A stretch of DNA of 64,000 nt. Source: Demequina sp. B12. Lineage in GTDB: Bacteria > Actinomycetota > Actinomycetes > Actinomycetales > Demequinaceae. Below are positions 6,218 to 45,113 of the stretch, in pieces; the stretch's first letter is position 1; the number at the start of each line of letters is the position of its first letter. Both the position numbers and the translations under genes were made by a program. The notes under the pieces were generated by a model that worked only from the letters and a program-made list of their open reading frames with translations, was not told the origin of the DNA and did not search any database. The stretch lies in assembly GCF_028823635.1 (NCBI RefSeq), contig NZ_JAPEHU010000001.1, positions 372,001 to 436,000 of the forward strand, in the 5' to 3' direction.

Positions 6218-6664
6218 ATGGCAAAGCTCATCCTGACCCACGAGGTCTCTGGCCTCGGCATCGCCGGTGACGTCGTTGACGTCAAGGACGGCTACGCACG
6301 CAACTACCTGGTTCCTCGCAAGCTGGCCACCCCGTGGTCCGCTGGTGCCGAGAAGCAGATCGAGGGCATCCGCAAGGCACAGCGTGCCAAGGAAATTGCG
6401 TCCGTGGAAGAGGCACAGGCAGCTCGTAACACGCTGCAGTCCTCGCCCGTCAAGGTCACCGCTAAGGCTGGCAAGTCCGGTCGCCTCTTCGGCGCCGTGA
6501 CCCCCGCCGACATCGCAGCCGCGATCGGTGACTCCGCGAAGGTCGACAAGCGCCGCATCCACATCGGCCAGCCCATCAAGGCGCTGGGCGAGTACCAGGT
6601 GGAGGTTTCCCTTCACTCGGAGATCTCCGCAACCGTGACCGTTCAGGTCGTGGCCGCGAAGTAA
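6218..6664 (+). CDS. rplI: 50S ribosomal protein bL9
   Basis: 148 residues with the N-terminal rRNA-binding domain (KLILTHEVSGLGIAGDVVDVKDGYARNYLVP), the long connecting helix, and a C-terminal domain ending VTVQVVAAK. Start 6218 is 13 nt after the rpsR stop, behind GGGGGT. Last gene of the operon, followed by a clear terminator. Confidence 0.98.
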   Translation: MAKLILTHEVSGLGIAGDVVDVKDGYARNYLVPRKLATPWSAGAEKQIEGIRKAQRAKEIASVEEAQAARNTLQSSPVKVTAKAGKSGRLFGAVTPADIAAAIGDSAKVDKRRIHIGQPIKALGEYQVEVSLHSEISATVTVQVVAAK

Positions 6665-6682
6665 CGCGCTTTACGCTCACGA

Positions 6683-6720
6683 GGCCCGGTTCCCCTTGCG
6701 GGGGGCCGGGCCTTGTTGTG
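6683..6720 (+). terminator. Intrinsic terminator after rplI
   Basis: GC-rich hairpin GGCCCGG..CCCC / GGGG..CCGGGCC (6683-6712) followed by a T/G-rich tract TTGTTGTG, 19 nt after the rplI stop. Confidence 0.8.
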
Positions 6721-6978
6721 TTCCTGGCGGCCCCAGTGGCGGGTTGGTGGCTGCGTGCGTTCCGTCCTCGGCGCGCTCCCCGCCGGCCCAAAGTGACTGA
6801 ACTGACCCCGCGGGACCCGCAACACACCGGCGAGTCACGCATCGGCTCCCAAATCTCAGTCAGTTGGGGACACGCGCACCAGGCAATCGCTGCCGACCCC
6901 GCAAGGGACTCAACTTCGCCACCCCATACGAGACAACCAACCAAGCCCTGTTGCAATAGCCCATTGAATCCGCCTGCG

Positions 6979-7005
6979 AAAAGTGACACCAGATAACTGC
7001 CAGGA
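6979..7005 (+). repeat. Dispersed 27-bp repeat, copy 1
   Basis: This 27-mer (core AAGTGACACCAGAT, then A/G, then ACTGCCAGGA) matches 49637-49663 at 26 of 27 positions. In copy 1 no inverted partner is seen nearby; in copy 2 it forms one arm of a long hairpin. Function unknown. Confidence 0.75.
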
Positions 7006-7126
7006 GGCTGGGGATGGCGCAGGCGGCAGCCAGTTGCGACACGCCGATGCGCGACACGCCCGGGAGTTTTCCACTCGGGTTTTCCCCAGGTCAGTTTTCA
7101 CTATCTACCCTGGTAAAGCAGGCAAT

Positions 7127-7231
7127 GGTGGACAACTGGGGTAGATATCCACACCTGCATCCACAGGCTGTGGGCACGCGTCCACAGCCTGACCCCCCGG
7201 TTGTTCACAGGATGTTCACAAGTTGTCCACG
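7127..7231. other. DnaA-box-like cluster upstream of dnaB
   Basis: At least seven 9-mers resemble the TTRTNCACA box: TTGTCCACC on the minus strand (7127-7135), ATATCCACA (7145-7153), GCATCCACA (7157-7165), GCGTCCACA (7178-7186), TTGTTCACA (7201-7209, exact), ATGTTCACA (7212-7220), TTGTCCACG (7223-7231). They lie in non-coding DNA 110-215 nt before the dnaB start. Confidence 0.6.
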
Positions 7232-7340
7232 GCATCGGCGCATCTCAACTTGTGAAGTAGCGTCCCGCGCCATAACTTGGCGTGTCACACCTGTCAGGGA
7301 CACTGGGCCTCAAGCCCACATCAGGGAGGTCCACCGCTTT

Positions 7341-8708
7341 ATGTCAGTCGACGAGCTCGAAGCTTCATACGGTCAGGAACCGCCCTCCTATGAGCGGCTC
7401 CCTCCGCAGAACCTTGAGGCCGAACAGTCGGTGCTGGGCTCCATGCTGCTGTCCAAGGACGCTATGGCTGACGTCATTGAGATGGTGCGCGCGGATGACT
7501 TCTACAAGCCCGCCCACGAACTGATCTTCGACTGCGCCGTCAAGCTCTACAACGGCGGTGACCCGGTGGACGCGCTGACGGTGGGCGCGGAACTACAGCG
7601 CACCAACCAGCTGAGTCGCGCCGGGGGAGCGGAGTACCTCCACACGTTGATCTCGGTGGTGCCGTCGGCGGCATCGGCGGGCTACTACGCCAAGCTGGTC
7701 CGCGAGCAGTCCATCCTTCGTCGCCTCGTCGAGGCCGGCACGCGCATTGCGGGCATGGGCTACGACGGTGACGGCTCAGAAATTGACGCCGTCGTTGACG
7801 GCGCACAAGCGGAGATCTTCAAGGTCACGGAACGTCGCAACACCCAGGACTACCTGTCACTCGGGGACGTCATGGAGCAGACGCTCGAGCAGGTGGATGC
7901 CGCGTCGAGCCGTGACGGCGAAATGCTGGGTGTTCCCACCGGCTTCCGGGACCTCGATGAGCTGACAGGTGGCCTCCAGGGCGGTCAGATGATCGTGATC
8001 GCGGCACGTCCCGCCGTGGGTAAGTCAACCCTGGGCTTGGACATTGCACGGTCCGCGTCGATTCACCACAACCGGGCGTCCGTCATCTTCTCGCTCGAAA
8101 TGAGCCGCGAAGAAATCACCAAGCGCATGCTGTCCGCAGAGGCGAGCGTCAAACTGTCCAAGCTGACAAAGGGGCCGATGGGTCCCAATGACTGGGAGCG
8201 CCTGGCCCACACTGCCGCGCGGCTCGCCAAGGCACCGCTGTTCATCGACGACTCCCCGAACATGACGCTCATGGAGATTCGTGCCAAGTGTCGCCGCCTC
8301 AAGCAGCAGCACAACTTGGGTTTGGTGGTGCTGGACTACCTGCAGCTGATGAGTTCGGGACGCAAGGTGGAGTCGCGCCAGCAAGAGGTGTCCGAGTTCT
8401 CGCGTGCGTTGAAGCTTTTGGCGAAGGAGATCGAGGTCCCTGTGATCGCGATCTCGCAGCTGAACCGCGGTTCTGAACAGCGCACGGAGAAGAAGCCGAT
8501 GCTGTCTGACATGCGTGAGTCCGGCGCCATCGAGCAGGACGCAGACATCGTGATCTTGCTGCACCGTGACGATGTGTATGACCGCGACAACCGTCCGGGC
8601 GAGGCGGACTTCATTGTGGCGAAGCACCGTGCCGGCCCCACCGACACGATCGCGGTCGCGTTCAAGAAGGATTACGCCCACTTCACCGACATGGCGCCCG
8701 ACATGTAG
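7341..8708 (+). CDS. dnaB: Replicative DNA helicase DnaB
   Basis: 455 residues. N-terminal helical domain (residues ~18-120, PPQNLEAEQSVLGSMLL) binds primase. The RecA-like C-terminal motor has Walker A ARPAVGKST (~222-230), Walker B VVLDYLQLM, and ISQLNRGSE and SGAIEQDADIV motifs. Unwinds DNA as a hexamer at the fork. Start 7341 is chosen because GGGAGGT lies 10 nt upstream and the family begins here. No intein interrupts the P-loop or the downstream motifs, which are frequent intein sites in actinobacterial dnaB. Confidence 0.97.
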   Translation: MSVDELEASYGQEPPSYERLPPQNLEAEQSVLGSMLLSKDAMADVIEMVRADDFYKPAHELIFDCAVKLYNGGDPVDALTVGAELQRTNQLSRAGGAEYLHTLISVVPSAASAGYYAKLVREQSILRRLVEAGTRIAGMGYDGDGSEIDAVVDGAQAEIFKVTERRNTQDYLSLGDVMEQTLEQVDAASSRDGEMLGVPTGFRDLDELTGGLQGGQMIVIAARPAVGKSTLGLDIARSASIHHNRASVIFSLEMSREEITKRMLSAEASVKLSKLTKGPMGPNDWERLAHTAARLAKAPLFIDDSPNMTLMEIRAKCRRLKQQHNLGLVVLDYLQLMSSGRKVESRQQEVSEFSRALKLLAKEIEVPVIAISQLNRGSEQRTEKKPMLSDMRESGAIEQDADIVILLHRDDVYDRDNRPGEADFIVAKHRAGPTDTIAVAFKKDYAHFTDMAPDM

Positions 8709-12320: not shown

Positions 12321-13751
12321 TTACGGGAGCACAGCGGCGGCTGATGCTGTGTCTGGGGTGCGTTGCAAAGCGTCGAGCCGCTCTGCAACCGCCTCCCGCG
12401 GTAGGTCGGGGGCGGACGACACCATGGCGTAGATGGCGCGGCCGCGCTCGGTGGCGAGCAACAGGTGCTTGTCGCGTTCGCAGTGCGCTTTGAGGACTTG
12501 GTTTACGACACCCACGTTGACGCCGTTGCCCATCTGTTTGTAGGTCAAGGCGTCACGCTGGGTTCCGAAGGAGAAATTGTCGGGTAGCCCTTGGAGCCGC
12601 GCCGCTTCGCGCGCGGAGAGTTTCCGCTTGAGTGGTCCGATGATGGGGGTCTGCGTGATGGCGACCAGCGCAGGCAAGTGGGTGGGGCGTTTGACCCTCA
12701 GCCCAGACGGCCTGAATGAGATCACGCAGTCCCACATGGACTCAGCGTCCTGGGCCTGCCACTCCAGTTTGCGCCGTGACTCTGGGAACTGGCGAACCCT
12801 ACGAAGCCACTTGCCCATCTCTTTCGCTCCAAGGAACTCCCGTAAGCCGTCGTACAGGTCAAAGTTCTTCTTGAGAAAGCCAGCCTTCCAGGCTGGGGCG
12901 CCATCGAGAAGACGCTCACGCTCAGCTGAAGTCGATACCCAAGCATCGGCCCAGATCGGGTGGCCGGGAAGTCTCCTGATGGGCTCGCCGGTGCGGCGTG
13001 ATTGATCGGCGCGCCACGCCCGCATGAAGACCACCATCTGCTCCCAGTGATCAACCCATGCGCGCTCATCTAGTGAAATCTCGGTACCGGCCACATTGCG
13101 GGAAGCGTCCATGGGTAGATCCTCGACGAGGTTCCATTCACGGTGCATCAGCACGTGTTCGGGGAGCGCAACTGGGGCCGGGTCTGGATCCATGACCATG
13201 TGCTCCGGGACCAGAGTCGCCGTGATGAAGACGCGCTCTCTCACCTGCGGTGAGCCGCCAAAGTCTGGTGCGATGAGGTGCGGCGAGAACACCGCGCTCT
13301 CCTCCGCGACCTGGTAGCCGGCGTTGCGCAGGTGTTCGATGATGACCTGCCACTCATGCTTGTGGCGGGGGCCAGCGAGGTTGCGCACGTTCTCGAGGCA
13401 GATGAGCGTGGGCTTGCGTTCGCGCACGATCTTCTCGATGTTCCAAAAGAGTGTGCCGCGGACCTCATCCATGCCGCGTTGTGCGCCTGACTTGGAGAAG
13501 GGCTGGCAGGGAAAACCGCCCGTGATGACGTCATGTGGAGGCACTGTGACGCCAGCGTCGTTGGCGTCCTTGGTGACGTCGCCAAGCGCCGGGTGCTTCC
13601 AGTTTTCCTCGTAGACCGCAGCGGCGTGCTTGTCGATCTCCACTGCATACGCATGCTCGGCACCCATTGCTGAAAGCGCTGCCGCGAAGCCACCGACTCC
13701 GGCAAAAAGGTCTGCGAAGGTGACGGCACCGGGGGCTTGCTGAGTGGGCAT
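12321..13751 (-). CDS. Type II DNA (cytosine-5) methyltransferase
   Basis: 476 residues with the ordered C5-methylase motifs: I DLFAGVGGF (~14-22, SAM binding), IV GGFPCQPFS (catalytic Cys82), VI ENVRNL (~120-125), VIII QVRERVFI, IX RLQGLPDNF, X QMGNGVNVGVV. The target-recognition region (~260-370) lies between VIII and IX. It methylates cytosine in the site cut by the partner enzyme. Divergently paired with the adjacent PD-(D/E)xK-like gene at 13902, separated by 150 bp. The recognition sequence cannot be deduced. No Vsr or C-protein gene is present. Confidence 0.93.
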   Translation of the reverse strand: MPTQQAPGAVTFADLFAGVGGFAAALSAMGAEHAYAVEIDKHAAAVYEENWKHPALGDVTKDANDAGVTVPPHDVITGGFPCQPFSKSGAQRGMDEVRGTLFWNIEKIVRERKPTLICLENVRNLAGPRHKHEWQVIIEHLRNAGYQVAEESAVFSPHLIAPDFGGSPQVRERVFITATLVPEHMVMDPDPAPVALPEHVLMHREWNLVEDLPMDASRNVAGTEISLDERAWVDHWEQMVVFMRAWRADQSRRTGEPIRRLPGHPIWADAWVSTSAERERLLDGAPAWKAGFLKKNFDLYDGLREFLGAKEMGKWLRRVRQFPESRRKLEWQAQDAESMWDCVISFRPSGLRVKRPTHLPALVAITQTPIIGPLKRKLSAREAARLQGLPDNFSFGTQRDALTYKQMGNGVNVGVVNQVLKAHCERDKHLLLATERGRAIYAMVSSAPDLPREAVAERLDALQRTPDTASAAAVLP

Positions 13752-13901: not shown

Positions 13902-15101
13902 ATGGGAAGCATTGAGGTCGACCAGATCCTTGTCGACGGGTCGGTGGCCGCGGATGTTGACACCACCCTCAGACCCACGGAGAAGTCCGCGTTGCTGCTG
14001 AATGCGCTTCCCGGTGCGGTAGTCGAGCAGTTCAGCGGTACTCGAGTGGTGAGGATCAACGATCAGGTGATCCTCAGCGCCCAAGTGACCCACTTGGGAA
14101 ACCCCTGGCCGGGGTTCAAGAAGCGCATCCAGATCCCCAACCGCTGGGTCGATGTCTACAGGGCTGCGATCGAGAGTGGCTTAGTTCCTCGCTTCGTGGG
14201 CATCTACCACTATCGAGACGTCACGGTCTTTGTCGACTTTGAACCGCACGCCTACGTCCAGAGGAAGGCGAACAACTCTGCGGCTCACGTCGCCACCAAT
14301 GACCTGCACCAGGCACAGACCGCTGGCGTGTTTTCCCGAGTCGACAGTGCCGGGAACCGACTCACCAGCGTCCGTGCCGATGGCTTTGCTGCGTACATCG
14401 AGGGGCGTCTCGCTGACTTCAACCCCCATGTTGAAGTCTTCGATCAGTTCAACAACGAGTTCCTCAGTAGGGCCCGGTTGGACGCACTTCCCGCGGTCCA
14501 GGAAATGTATGCCGCCCGCTGGCCGGACACGATGCAGGGGGAGTGGGCTGGCTTCTACCTGGAGTACCGGTTCCAGGAGTTCCTGGCGCGTAGTAAGAAC
14601 GACAGGTACGTGTCATTCCAGAAGGCCAAACGCCGCGGAGAGCTTGACTACGACCTTGCGTTCCGGGTTGGACAGGAGGTGGCCTTCTACGGTGACCTTA
14701 AGGCGTCCGCGACGAGTTCCCGGGAGTCGCCCGGAAACGATGCGGCCGACCTCATCGAGTGCGTGCGTAAGTACGGCCAGTTCTGGTACGTCATCTACGA
14801 GCACGAAACGTGGCACAGCAAGGACGAAGACGACTTGCCTGTCATGGAGTGGAACGAGTGGCGCCGATCTGTCGGCCACGTGGGGCGTGGGGAGTTCAAC
14901 CCAAGGTCCTACTCAACGCGGTTCAAGTCTGCGGTTCGGTTTGTCGGAATGAAGATCCTTGAGGTAAACGAGGCGAACTTCCACGTGGTCCTGGGGGACT
15001 TCAACCAGGGACGTCAGCCCGATGGCGCAGACCGTGCGGTCAAGGTCATGATCTCCAAGCGCAACATCGACAACTTCCTGGTGTACTCGCGGAGTATCTA
15101 A
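13902..15101 (+). CDS. Probable type II restriction endonuclease (PD-(D/E)xK-like)
   Basis: 399 residues without a family I can name. Residues ~246-267 read GELDYDLAF then YGDLKAS, which gives an acidic residue in a predicted beta strand followed by D265-x-K267, the layout of a PD-(D/E)xK nuclease core. It faces the C5-methyltransferase gene across a 150-bp shared promoter region, the usual arrangement of a restriction-modification pair, and ends at a strong bidirectional terminator. The assignment rests on context plus this motif, so the exact nuclease class is uncertain. Confidence 0.7.
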   Translation: MGSIEVDQILVDGSVAADVDTTLRPTEKSALLLNALPGAVVEQFSGTRVVRINDQVILSAQVTHLGNPWPGFKKRIQIPNRWVDVYRAAIESGLVPRFVGIYHYRDVTVFVDFEPHAYVQRKANNSAAHVATNDLHQAQTAGVFSRVDSAGNRLTSVRADGFAAYIEGRLADFNPHVEVFDQFNNEFLSRARLDALPAVQEMYAARWPDTMQGEWAGFYLEYRFQEFLARSKNDRYVSFQKAKRRGELDYDLAFRVGQEVAFYGDLKASATSSRESPGNDAADLIECVRKYGQFWYVIYEHETWHSKDEDDLPVMEWNEWRRSVGHVGRGEFNPRSYSTRFKSAVRFVGMKILEVNEANFHVVLGDFNQGRQPDGADRAVKVMISKRNIDNFLVYSRSI

Positions 15102-15561: not shown

Positions 15562-16332
15562 AAGGTCTCTTGACCCTTTCTGCTCATGGTGAGCAAGACA
15601 ACCGCCAATGTGGACATGGCCACACTGGCTGGACTTGGCTCGTCCGCAGGGGGCTAGGATCAAAGACACCTTGAGCCGCTAACTTTTGGTGCCTGCGAGC
15701 CCGATCCCCCAGCAAAACCGGAGGGACCGGGCTTGCCGTGCTTCTAAGCCGTCTCGGGCGGAGTTGCCTTCGACATGACCACTATATCTAGTGGTCGCTC
15801 GCAGTCGCCACCACAACATGCTGTGTTTCTCCCCAACTTGCTCACAATTTATCCACAGAGTTGTCCACAGGTGCTGCGATCGGCATCTGGTCAGCAATCG
15901 TGACGGGCACAGGTTCCGCGTAGCCCCGTTTGCGCAACACGCAGGGCCCCGAGGGATGAGTTCCACGACTTGTAGATTGCTGGACTCTTGTCAGTACTGC
16001 TTCAGCGCAGTGCGAGTCGTGAGTACCCCAGTTATGACCTGGCCGACGGGAGCTGTGAGTTCGAGCGTGTGTCCGCGAACACGTGGCTTGTGAGTCCAGT
16101 TGAGTCGGGATGCGTCGCGACGGCTCCTTGTCCCCCTTGTCAGTTCCTCTCCTGGGTCGGCACTGTGCTGGGTTGCGTCACGCACGAAGTGTGTGTGGAG
16201 CCGTCTCCCACCGCGACGCTACATCTCAGCAAAACCTTGAGAAGCCATCTACGAGCCATTATGGCGGCCGAGAGATCCGAGCCTCTGAGCGCTCACCTGC
16301 TTGATTGGCGGTGAGGATTGCGTGTGACGGGC
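15562..16332. other. 771-bp spacer between the YjzC-like gene and the ABC-3C operon
   Basis: No supported gene. It holds three DnaA-box-like sites (15838-15869) and a weak hairpin near 15696-15731 (AGCCCG...CGGGCT). Open frames on both strands look like random translation. Confidence 0.6.
15838..15869 (+). other. DnaA-box trio in the defence island
   Basis: TTGCTCACA (15838-15846), TTATCCACA (15849-15857, the exact classical box) and TTGTCCACA (15861-15869, exact to TTRTNCACA) in the same orientation, 11-12 nt apart, in non-coding DNA. Confidence 0.6.
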
Positions 16333-44628: not shown

Positions 44629-44694
44629 CTTTCCACAGATTTTGTCCACAGGGTTGTGAACAGGACGTGAACATGGGGGAACGGCTGTGGAAAA
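44629..44694. other. DnaA-box-like cluster downstream of copD-ctaG
   Basis: CTTTCCACA (44629-44637), TTGTCCACA (44642-44650, exact to TTRTNCACA), CTGTTCACA on the minus strand (44655-44663), ATGTTCACG on the minus strand (44666-44674), TTTTCCACA on the minus strand (44686-44694). Five sites in 66 bp on both strands. Confidence 0.55.
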
Positions 44695-45113
44695 ACCTGC
44701 GGAGAAACTCGGGTTGAAAATCTCACCCCGAACTGGGTTGCGCCCACGCCCCGACGCGAGTGCGACTAGTTCCATCGGGTAGCACAGTCCATCGTGGGGC
44801 AGGCCTCAGAAGGGCCGGTGCGTGAACACCCGGGCACTGGCGTGCGCAAGGATTGCGGGCGTCATGCCTGGTAAAAGCGTGTGTGCAGACGTTGATGGGG
44901 TGGCTATCCGGGCGAACAGGAGAACGGGAGTCCACCGGACGCCGAGGCACTGGATTACCAGGCCAAAGCAACCACTGCGGGTGACGGCGCAGGGACTCGC
45001 GGCACCGTTCGTCGGCCGAGAGGTCGTTGTCCACATGGGCATCGAAGCCGCATCGTCAATCGCGGCCATCGCGCCGGGTTATCCCCAGGCTGCGAGAACT
45101 CTCGAGCCTAGGC

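Follow-up and report, generated by a model that had tools for sequence, protein, structure and literature searches.

Conserved DnaA-box-like sites and a second shared operator upstream of dnaB in Demequina: a probable composite promoter

Introduction

What does a dense run of DnaA-box-like sites do directly upstream of the gene for the replicative helicase? To our knowledge, little is established about how actinobacteria match their supply of initiator, helicase and dNTPs to division. Such a run was found in a 64,000-nucleotide stretch of DNA (the window; C10:372001-436000 of a 2.33-Mb genome) from Demequina, which belongs to the Demequinaceae (Micrococcales). The initial annotation offered three roles for it: coupling of dnaB expression to DnaA, titration of DnaA, or marking of an origin-proximal site. 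Here, the spacer upstream of dnaB is compared with its counterparts in relatives.

The rplI-dnaB spacer contains the densest run of DnaA-box-like sites in 104 kb

The genes are ordered rpsF-ssb-rpsR-rplI, followed by a 676-bp spacer and dnaB; the first four were named from their translations and dnaB from the TIGR00665 model. The spacer, initially given as 620 bp, was measured between ORF ends (rplI 6664, dnaB 7341). Among the matches listed, the best named match to dnaB was that of Demequina sp. NBRC 110051 (L002, 90% identical), and a ribosome site, GGGAGG, precedes the gene. dnaA is found at C10:346159-347586 on the opposite strand. The dnaA-dnaN spacer (approximately C10:345641-346155), which is oriC by gene order, lies 33 kb off the cluster. 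Elsewhere in the window, an ORF resembling a cytosine-5 DNA methyltransferase (GGFPCQPFS) and an opposite-strand ORF lie side by side (12321-13751 and 13902-15101), a possible restriction-modification pair.

Eight DnaA-like 9-mers were found at 7127-7231 (Table 1): one matches TTRTNCACA exactly, five have at most one mismatch, and all eight have at most two with a CAC core. The initial description of these sites as TTRTNCACA-like holds as far as a dense run is meant; the strict consensus is fitted at 7201-7209 only. A 105-bp frame moved base by base along C10:332001-436000 (104 kb, oriC included; 103,896 positions) indicated that the coordinates 7127-7231 are right and delimit the densest 105 bp. 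At up to one mismatch the cluster ranked first with five boxes, followed by the dnaA start with four and by window positions 15838 and 44642 with three; at up to two mismatches it was top with eight, and oriC was runner-up with six. Neither count was matched in first-order Markov simulations of the spacer (0/1000). The DnaA-box cluster upstream of dnaB is real. Further groups of strong DnaA boxes were observed up to about 75 kb from oriC, at window positions 44642-44650 and 45027-45035 and at C10:316537-316736.

Table 1. Features in and around the rplI-dnaB spacer (positions in the window; mm, mismatch to TTRTNCACA).
Feature	Position	Strand	Remark
rplI	6218-6664		ORF list
rplI-dnaB spacer, 676 bp	6665-7340	+	ORFs on either side
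CGACACGCC, tandem copy 1	7037-7045	+	tandem at dnaB in 44/47 Demequinaceae genomes
CGACACGCC, tandem copy 2, period 15	7052-7060	+	
Weak DnaA-like box TTTTCCCCA, conserved; NTNTCCMCA-like in relatives	7080-7088	+	TCC.CA columns almost invariant across the 27-row alignment
Conserved CCCTGGTAAA element	7108-7117	+	12-sequence and 27-row alignments
DnaA-like box TTGTCCACC, 1 mm	7127-7135	-	
DnaA-like box ATATCCACA, 1 mm	7145-7153	+	position conserved
DnaA-like box GCATCCACA, 2 mm	7157-7165	+	TCCACA almost invariant
DnaA-like box GTGCCCACA, 2 mm	7169-7177	-	
DnaA-like box GCGTCCACA, 2 mm	7178-7186	+	
DnaA box TTGTTCACA, exact TTRTNCACA	7201-7209	+	
DnaA-like box ATGTTCACA, 1 mm	7212-7220	+	
DnaA-like box TTGTCCACG, 1 mm	7223-7231	+	common among relatives
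Putative -35, TTGTGA	7250-7255	+	conserved TTTGTG-type block, 17 nt 5' of -10
Putative -10, TAACTT	7273-7278	+	TA and last T invariant in relatives
Inverted operator copy, GGCGTGTCA = TGACACGCC	7279-7287	-	at predicted transcription start
GACAC, inverted partner	7299-7303	+	17 nt past GTGTC (7282)
dnaB, replicative DNA helicase, 455 aa	7341-8708	+	TIGR00665 DnaB, 527.5 bits, above cut-off

The DnaA boxes are conserved and end at a predicted promoter

The best 80 of 589 confirmed dnaB loci were compared with the window, giving 81 upstream regions. In this set, whose counts are not independent trials because the loci are related, an unbiased count of k-mers ranked DnaA boxes first among the signals 5' of dnaB: TCCACA was present in 81/81 regions (24 expected), TTGTCCACA in 37/81 and TTATCCACA in 32/81 (0.5 and 0.1 expected). 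Across the best 80 of 589 loci, TTRTCCACA occurred 92 times in the 47,884 bp preceding dnaB (57/80 loci) versus 4 times in 504,673 bp elsewhere, a roughly 240-fold higher density ahead of the gene; 73 copies were on the + strand relative to dnaB and 19 on the - strand. The Demequinaceae spacers were aligned for 27/30 loci, leaving out L126, L127 and L137, whose dnaB start was unparsed (L137 was read separately). These 27 Demequina-type genomes carried a mean of 3.7 boxes with at most one mismatch per spacer (1-6), versus 0.06-0.48 in simulated spacers, with 93 boxes directed towards dnaB (+) and 7 in the other orientation (-). Box positions drift across species, and certain relatives retain just one or two boxes at this threshold.

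In the 27 aligned genomes, the DnaA boxes stop directly 5' of a conserved, sigma-70-type promoter-like pair. A consensus promoter scan of 6600-7400 reported none; the putative -35 and -10 were assigned because they are conserved in relatives. DnaA affinity sequencing in M. tuberculosis placed the dnaB upstream region among five strong sites in vitro, and ChIP-seq in M. smegmatis recovered the homologous five sites, including this region; the DnaA I282T substitution reduced binding upstream of dnaB, and the mutant had lower dnaB expression (available text of PMC7738170, which also refers to Caulobacter). Coupling of dnaB to DnaA is the best supported of the three roles offered initially, because the boxes lie just upstream of a conserved promoter, are mostly co-directional and have a counterpart bound by DnaA in mycobacteria (PMC7738170). 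The mycobacterial binding and I282T data also favour activation as the probable sign of DnaA control in Demequina. Since DnaA binding upstream of dnaB is known in mycobacteria, the cluster adds one more case to an established class and is of an ordinary type; the part worth following is the proposed composite promoter together with the shared operator described below.

A second operator is conserved upstream of dnaB

The span 7127-7231 singled out by the initial annotation misses a second conserved operator, CGACACGCC, which is located outside it. When the window was aligned with 11 relatives (L002-L007, L009-L013), copy 1 of the tandem was invariant, as was copy 2 save for one base in L011, and a script count found GTGTC 3' of the -10 in 20/27 aligned rows. 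The dnaB tandem is the sole match to CGACACGCC N2-12 CGACACGCC in its own genome. A pattern search detected CGACACGCC pairs in 45/47 Demequinaceae genomes, versus 3/47 for the reversed pattern, and positions compared by eye placed the pair approximately 270-370 bp upstream of dnaB in 44/47 genomes. The exact tandem is missing at dnaB in G012, G037 and G046; the second copy in G012 has one mismatch. Among the more distant 68 of the best 80 of 589 loci, CGACACGCC was found 15 times in the 40,800 bp preceding dnaB (13 loci) and 5 times in the other 429,891 bp, a 31.6-fold higher density upstream, while the reversed word, used as a control, occurred once upstream of dnaB. That CGACACGCC is a mere repeat was rejected, since the dnaB tandem occupies one orthologous place in 44/47 genomes.

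Two repeat families containing the word were observed. An intergenic family with CGACACGCC N2 CGACACGCC occurs in G018, G023 (L148-L160) and G042, followed in G018 by GTGTGGA...TGA units; G018 has 30 CGACACGCC pair matches over all spacings. A dispersed palindromic intergenic element contains an inverted CGACACGCC pair, mostly of a fixed 48-49 bp (C10:336564-336612 in the own genome, L247 1201-1249; L228-L246), within an outer inverted repeat (CAACGGA...TCCGTTG in G006, GAACC-type in G000, G002 and G016). It is present in 27/47 Demequinaceae genomes, in up to 19 copies (0 for the reversed-pattern control), and 13/23 inspected copies lie between convergent genes.

The operator recurs at dnaA, ribonucleotide reductase and division genes

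In the Demequina genome that holds the window, the nrdH promoter contains, in this order, three GGCGTGTC copies, TCCACA boxes and a box that we take to be NrdR-like from its resemblance to the consensus, followed by nrdH, nrdI, nrdE and nrdF. A close nrdH match was found in 19/47 genomes, and 19/19 of these promoters carry one to four full CGACACGCC copies approximately 155-205 bp upstream; at least two DnaA-like boxes (up to one mismatch) were counted in 14/19 and none in 5/19 within the stretch counted. At dnaA, for which 46 genomes had a match and 30 loci were counted, the core GACACG was present in 30/30 promoters and the full 9-mer in 15/30, the offset of GACACG being equal within 1 bp in the 25 loci with a recognised anchor. 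Other copies in the own genome lie upstream of nrdD (186 bp), recA (175), sepF (73), greA (98) and rpsJ (69), and further ones adjoin genes without a link to replication. In relatives, tandems were found beside pyrG (G003, G017; L090, L103) and folC (G008, G014, G023, G042). Genome-wide, the single word is not over-represented (41 copies versus 47 of the reversed word). With genes called by a simple codon-usage method, 24/41 copies fall outside called genes versus 17.4% non-coding sequence in the stretches concerned (P 3.9e-9 if copies are independent); the corresponding count for the reversed word was 1/5.

Three further observations concern these promoters. G011, rated 50% complete, has a CGACACGCC pair inside its dnaA-dnaN spacer, oriC by gene order (L098 1501-1520). 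A partial copy of the nrdH promoter lies on the minus strand of the window at 15777-15870, with 29 identical bases, an NrdR-like CCACTATATCTAGTGG and two strong DnaA boxes (15849, 15861); no nrd gene stands behind it in the ORF list. Many of the dnaA promoters (L248-L277) have a conserved GGTAACGA...GTGACA-type tandem right after CGACACGC, which presumably resembles MtrA boxes.

Beyond the Demequinaceae, 65/149 genomes of an order-wide sample contain a CGACACGCC pair (11 of the 149 are Demequinaceae). Pair loci from other families (39) were tested with 13 query proteins, which placed 6/39 pairs at nrdH-nrdI-nrdE (G109, G118, G142, G156, G073, G130), 5/39 at dnaB (G155, G053, G180, G141, G115) and 1/39 at sepF (G117); as 20/39 were picked by hand, the hit fraction is no random estimate. 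The remaining 27/39 match none of the 13 query proteins. Eight of these 27 fall inside called genes, one lies between whiB (144 bp; L328) and a cofD-like gene, and one is 394 bp from rpsJ (L358). Six others of the 27, from six genomes of three families, are tandem CGACACGCC copies 320-445 bp from an lnt-like gene (L324, L325, L356, L359, L360, L362; Pfam checked for one). A literature search (GACACGCC, dnaB and dnaA promoters, WhiA, ribonucleotide reductase, Demequina) found no description of the operator in titles or abstracts, subscription papers being mostly outside its scope. The sites, their conservation and the operator common to these genes are matters of observation.

WhiA is the leading candidate for the protein that reads the operator

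We know of no sporulation in Demequina-type organisms. In S. venezuelae, WhiA recognises the motif GACAC as a monomer and with no fixed orientation, and targets named in the available text include pyrG (the largest peak), nrdR, sepF3, rpsJ (75 bp) and wblH (PMC3781837). Binding of WhiA and WhiB in vivo is mutually dependent according to the available text of PMC4850268, and the WhiB orthologue of C. glutamicum has a stimulating effect on WhiA at the promoter of ftsZ (PMC6282962, part of the text). In B. subtilis, a whiA mutation shows synthetic lethality with the loss of ParB or of YabA, an inhibitor of replication, and WhiA is described, in the text available, as regulating no division or segregation gene (PMC10714963). 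The dnaB promoter contains GACAC at 7038, 7053 and 7299 and, inverted, at 7282, a frequent 5-mer that is weak alone. CGACACGCC is found at WhiA-type targets, namely pyrG (L090, L103), sepF (L189, L339), rpsJ (L175, L358), whiB (L328) and nrd genes. It is this overlap with part of the published S. venezuelae regulon that makes WhiA the first candidate, and we put the odds that WhiA, with WhiB, reads CGACACGCC at roughly even. Neither dnaA nor dnaB appears in the main texts of the S. venezuelae studies, as far as these are available (PMC3781837, PMC4850268).

The chance that another regulator binds CGACACGCC falls just short of even. The conserved motif spans 9 bp versus the published 5 bp, and the array periods of approximately 11-16 bp are compatible with many factors; against this, the targets shared with WhiA (pyrG, sepF, rpsJ, ribonucleotide reductase control and whiB-like genes) and the asymmetric sites in both orientations with variable spacing fit monomeric WhiA (PMC3781837, available text).

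A DnaA reservoir, an RNA element or a second origin fits less well

The cluster could instead be mainly a DnaA reservoir with dnaB as a mere neighbour. Clusters such as datA, DARS and those of Streptomyces titrate or convert DnaA, and with oriC 33 kb away the eight weak boxes would be duplicated early. TCCACA pairs also gather near oriC (8/21 within C10:316-417 kb; 11 genome-wide for the reversed pattern). We nevertheless consider this unlikely, since in many loci the array is retained beside dnaB and its promoter, mostly aimed at the gene, and in the mycobacterial DnaA mutant binding and dnaB expression go together (PMC7738170, available text).

An RNA element or terminator, in which the repeats fold as nested hairpins in the dnaB leader, was rejected as highly improbable: although 7100-7345 folds strongly (z -4.9) and contains the perfect inverted repeats I11 and I12, such strong folding is seen in the window copy alone, the matching span giving z -2.95 there versus -1.3 to +0.7 in 26 relatives. 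The predicted transcription start is downstream of the cluster, and no Rfam match at gathering thresholds was found in the rplI-dnaB spacer.

Least probable of all is a second or ancestral replication origin, rejected despite a DnaA-box density no lower than that of oriC and an adjacent helicase gene, because the dnaA-dnaN spacer, with boxes of its own, sits 33 kb away and the dnaB spacer has no AT-rich unwinding trough below that of oriC (lowest 100-bp GC 0.53 versus 0.49). The initial term origin-proximal is literally correct as to distance, but the site does not look like an origin; local GC skew, proposed as a check, was uninformative.

Discussion

We consider it likely that the spacer is a composite dnaB promoter, in which a DnaA array is combined with a second operator common to replication, dNTP and division genes. 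The promoter itself, binding in Demequina, the sign of regulation and the identity of the CGACACGCC binder are what we infer. In the proposed composite control element, DnaA would bind weak, mostly co-directional boxes directly 5' of the -35 and most likely activate dnaB, so that helicase supply would track DnaA availability. A second protein would occupy CGACACGCC, as a tandem some 210 bp 5' of the -10 element and as an inverted copy at the predicted start. The presence of the operator at dnaA, nrdHIEF, nrdD, sepF and pyrG would place dnaB in a replication, dNTP and division regulon, and DnaA and a WhiA-type factor may jointly control helicase, initiator and dNTP supply.

A broader reading, which we advance tentatively and rate somewhat below an even chance, is that WhiA/WhiB reads CGACACGCC in Demequinaceae and other families of the order and acts with DnaA as a replication-phase regulator, the sporulation role in Streptomyces being derived from an older cell-cycle regulator. 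If so, this regulator would switch on or restrain dnaA, dnaB, ribonucleotide reductase genes, sepF and pyrG, and WhiA may have a cell-cycle role outside sporulating species. Should the binder not be WhiA, an unnamed replication regulator is still to be found. A 9-bp operator common to dnaA, dnaB and nrdHIEF beside DnaA boxes is a concrete, testable handle.

The array resembles datA, DARS and the Streptomyces DnaA-box clusters in placing boxes outside oriC; unlike them, it is tied to a promoter and a gene. E. coli nrdAB is controlled by DnaA, and in both cases the promoter of a ribonucleotide reductase carries initiator boxes, whereas here the genes are nrdHIEF, of class Ib, and their boxes are accompanied by NrdR-like ones and by arrays of CGACACGCC. 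The mycobacterial dnaB upstream region likewise has DnaA sites 5' of dnaB, those in Demequina being predicted from sequence; the available text of PMC7738170 mentions no CGACACGCC operator there, in contrast to its presence in Demequinaceae. With the S. venezuelae WhiA/WhiB regulon, as given in the available texts of PMC3781837 and PMC4850268, the sites share a GACAC core, asymmetry and use in either orientation, together with pyrG, sepF3, rpsJ, ribonucleotide reductase control and whiB-like targets; they differ from it in spanning 9 bp (CGACACGCC), in frequently forming tandems and in lying at dnaB, dnaA, nrdHIEF and nrdD.
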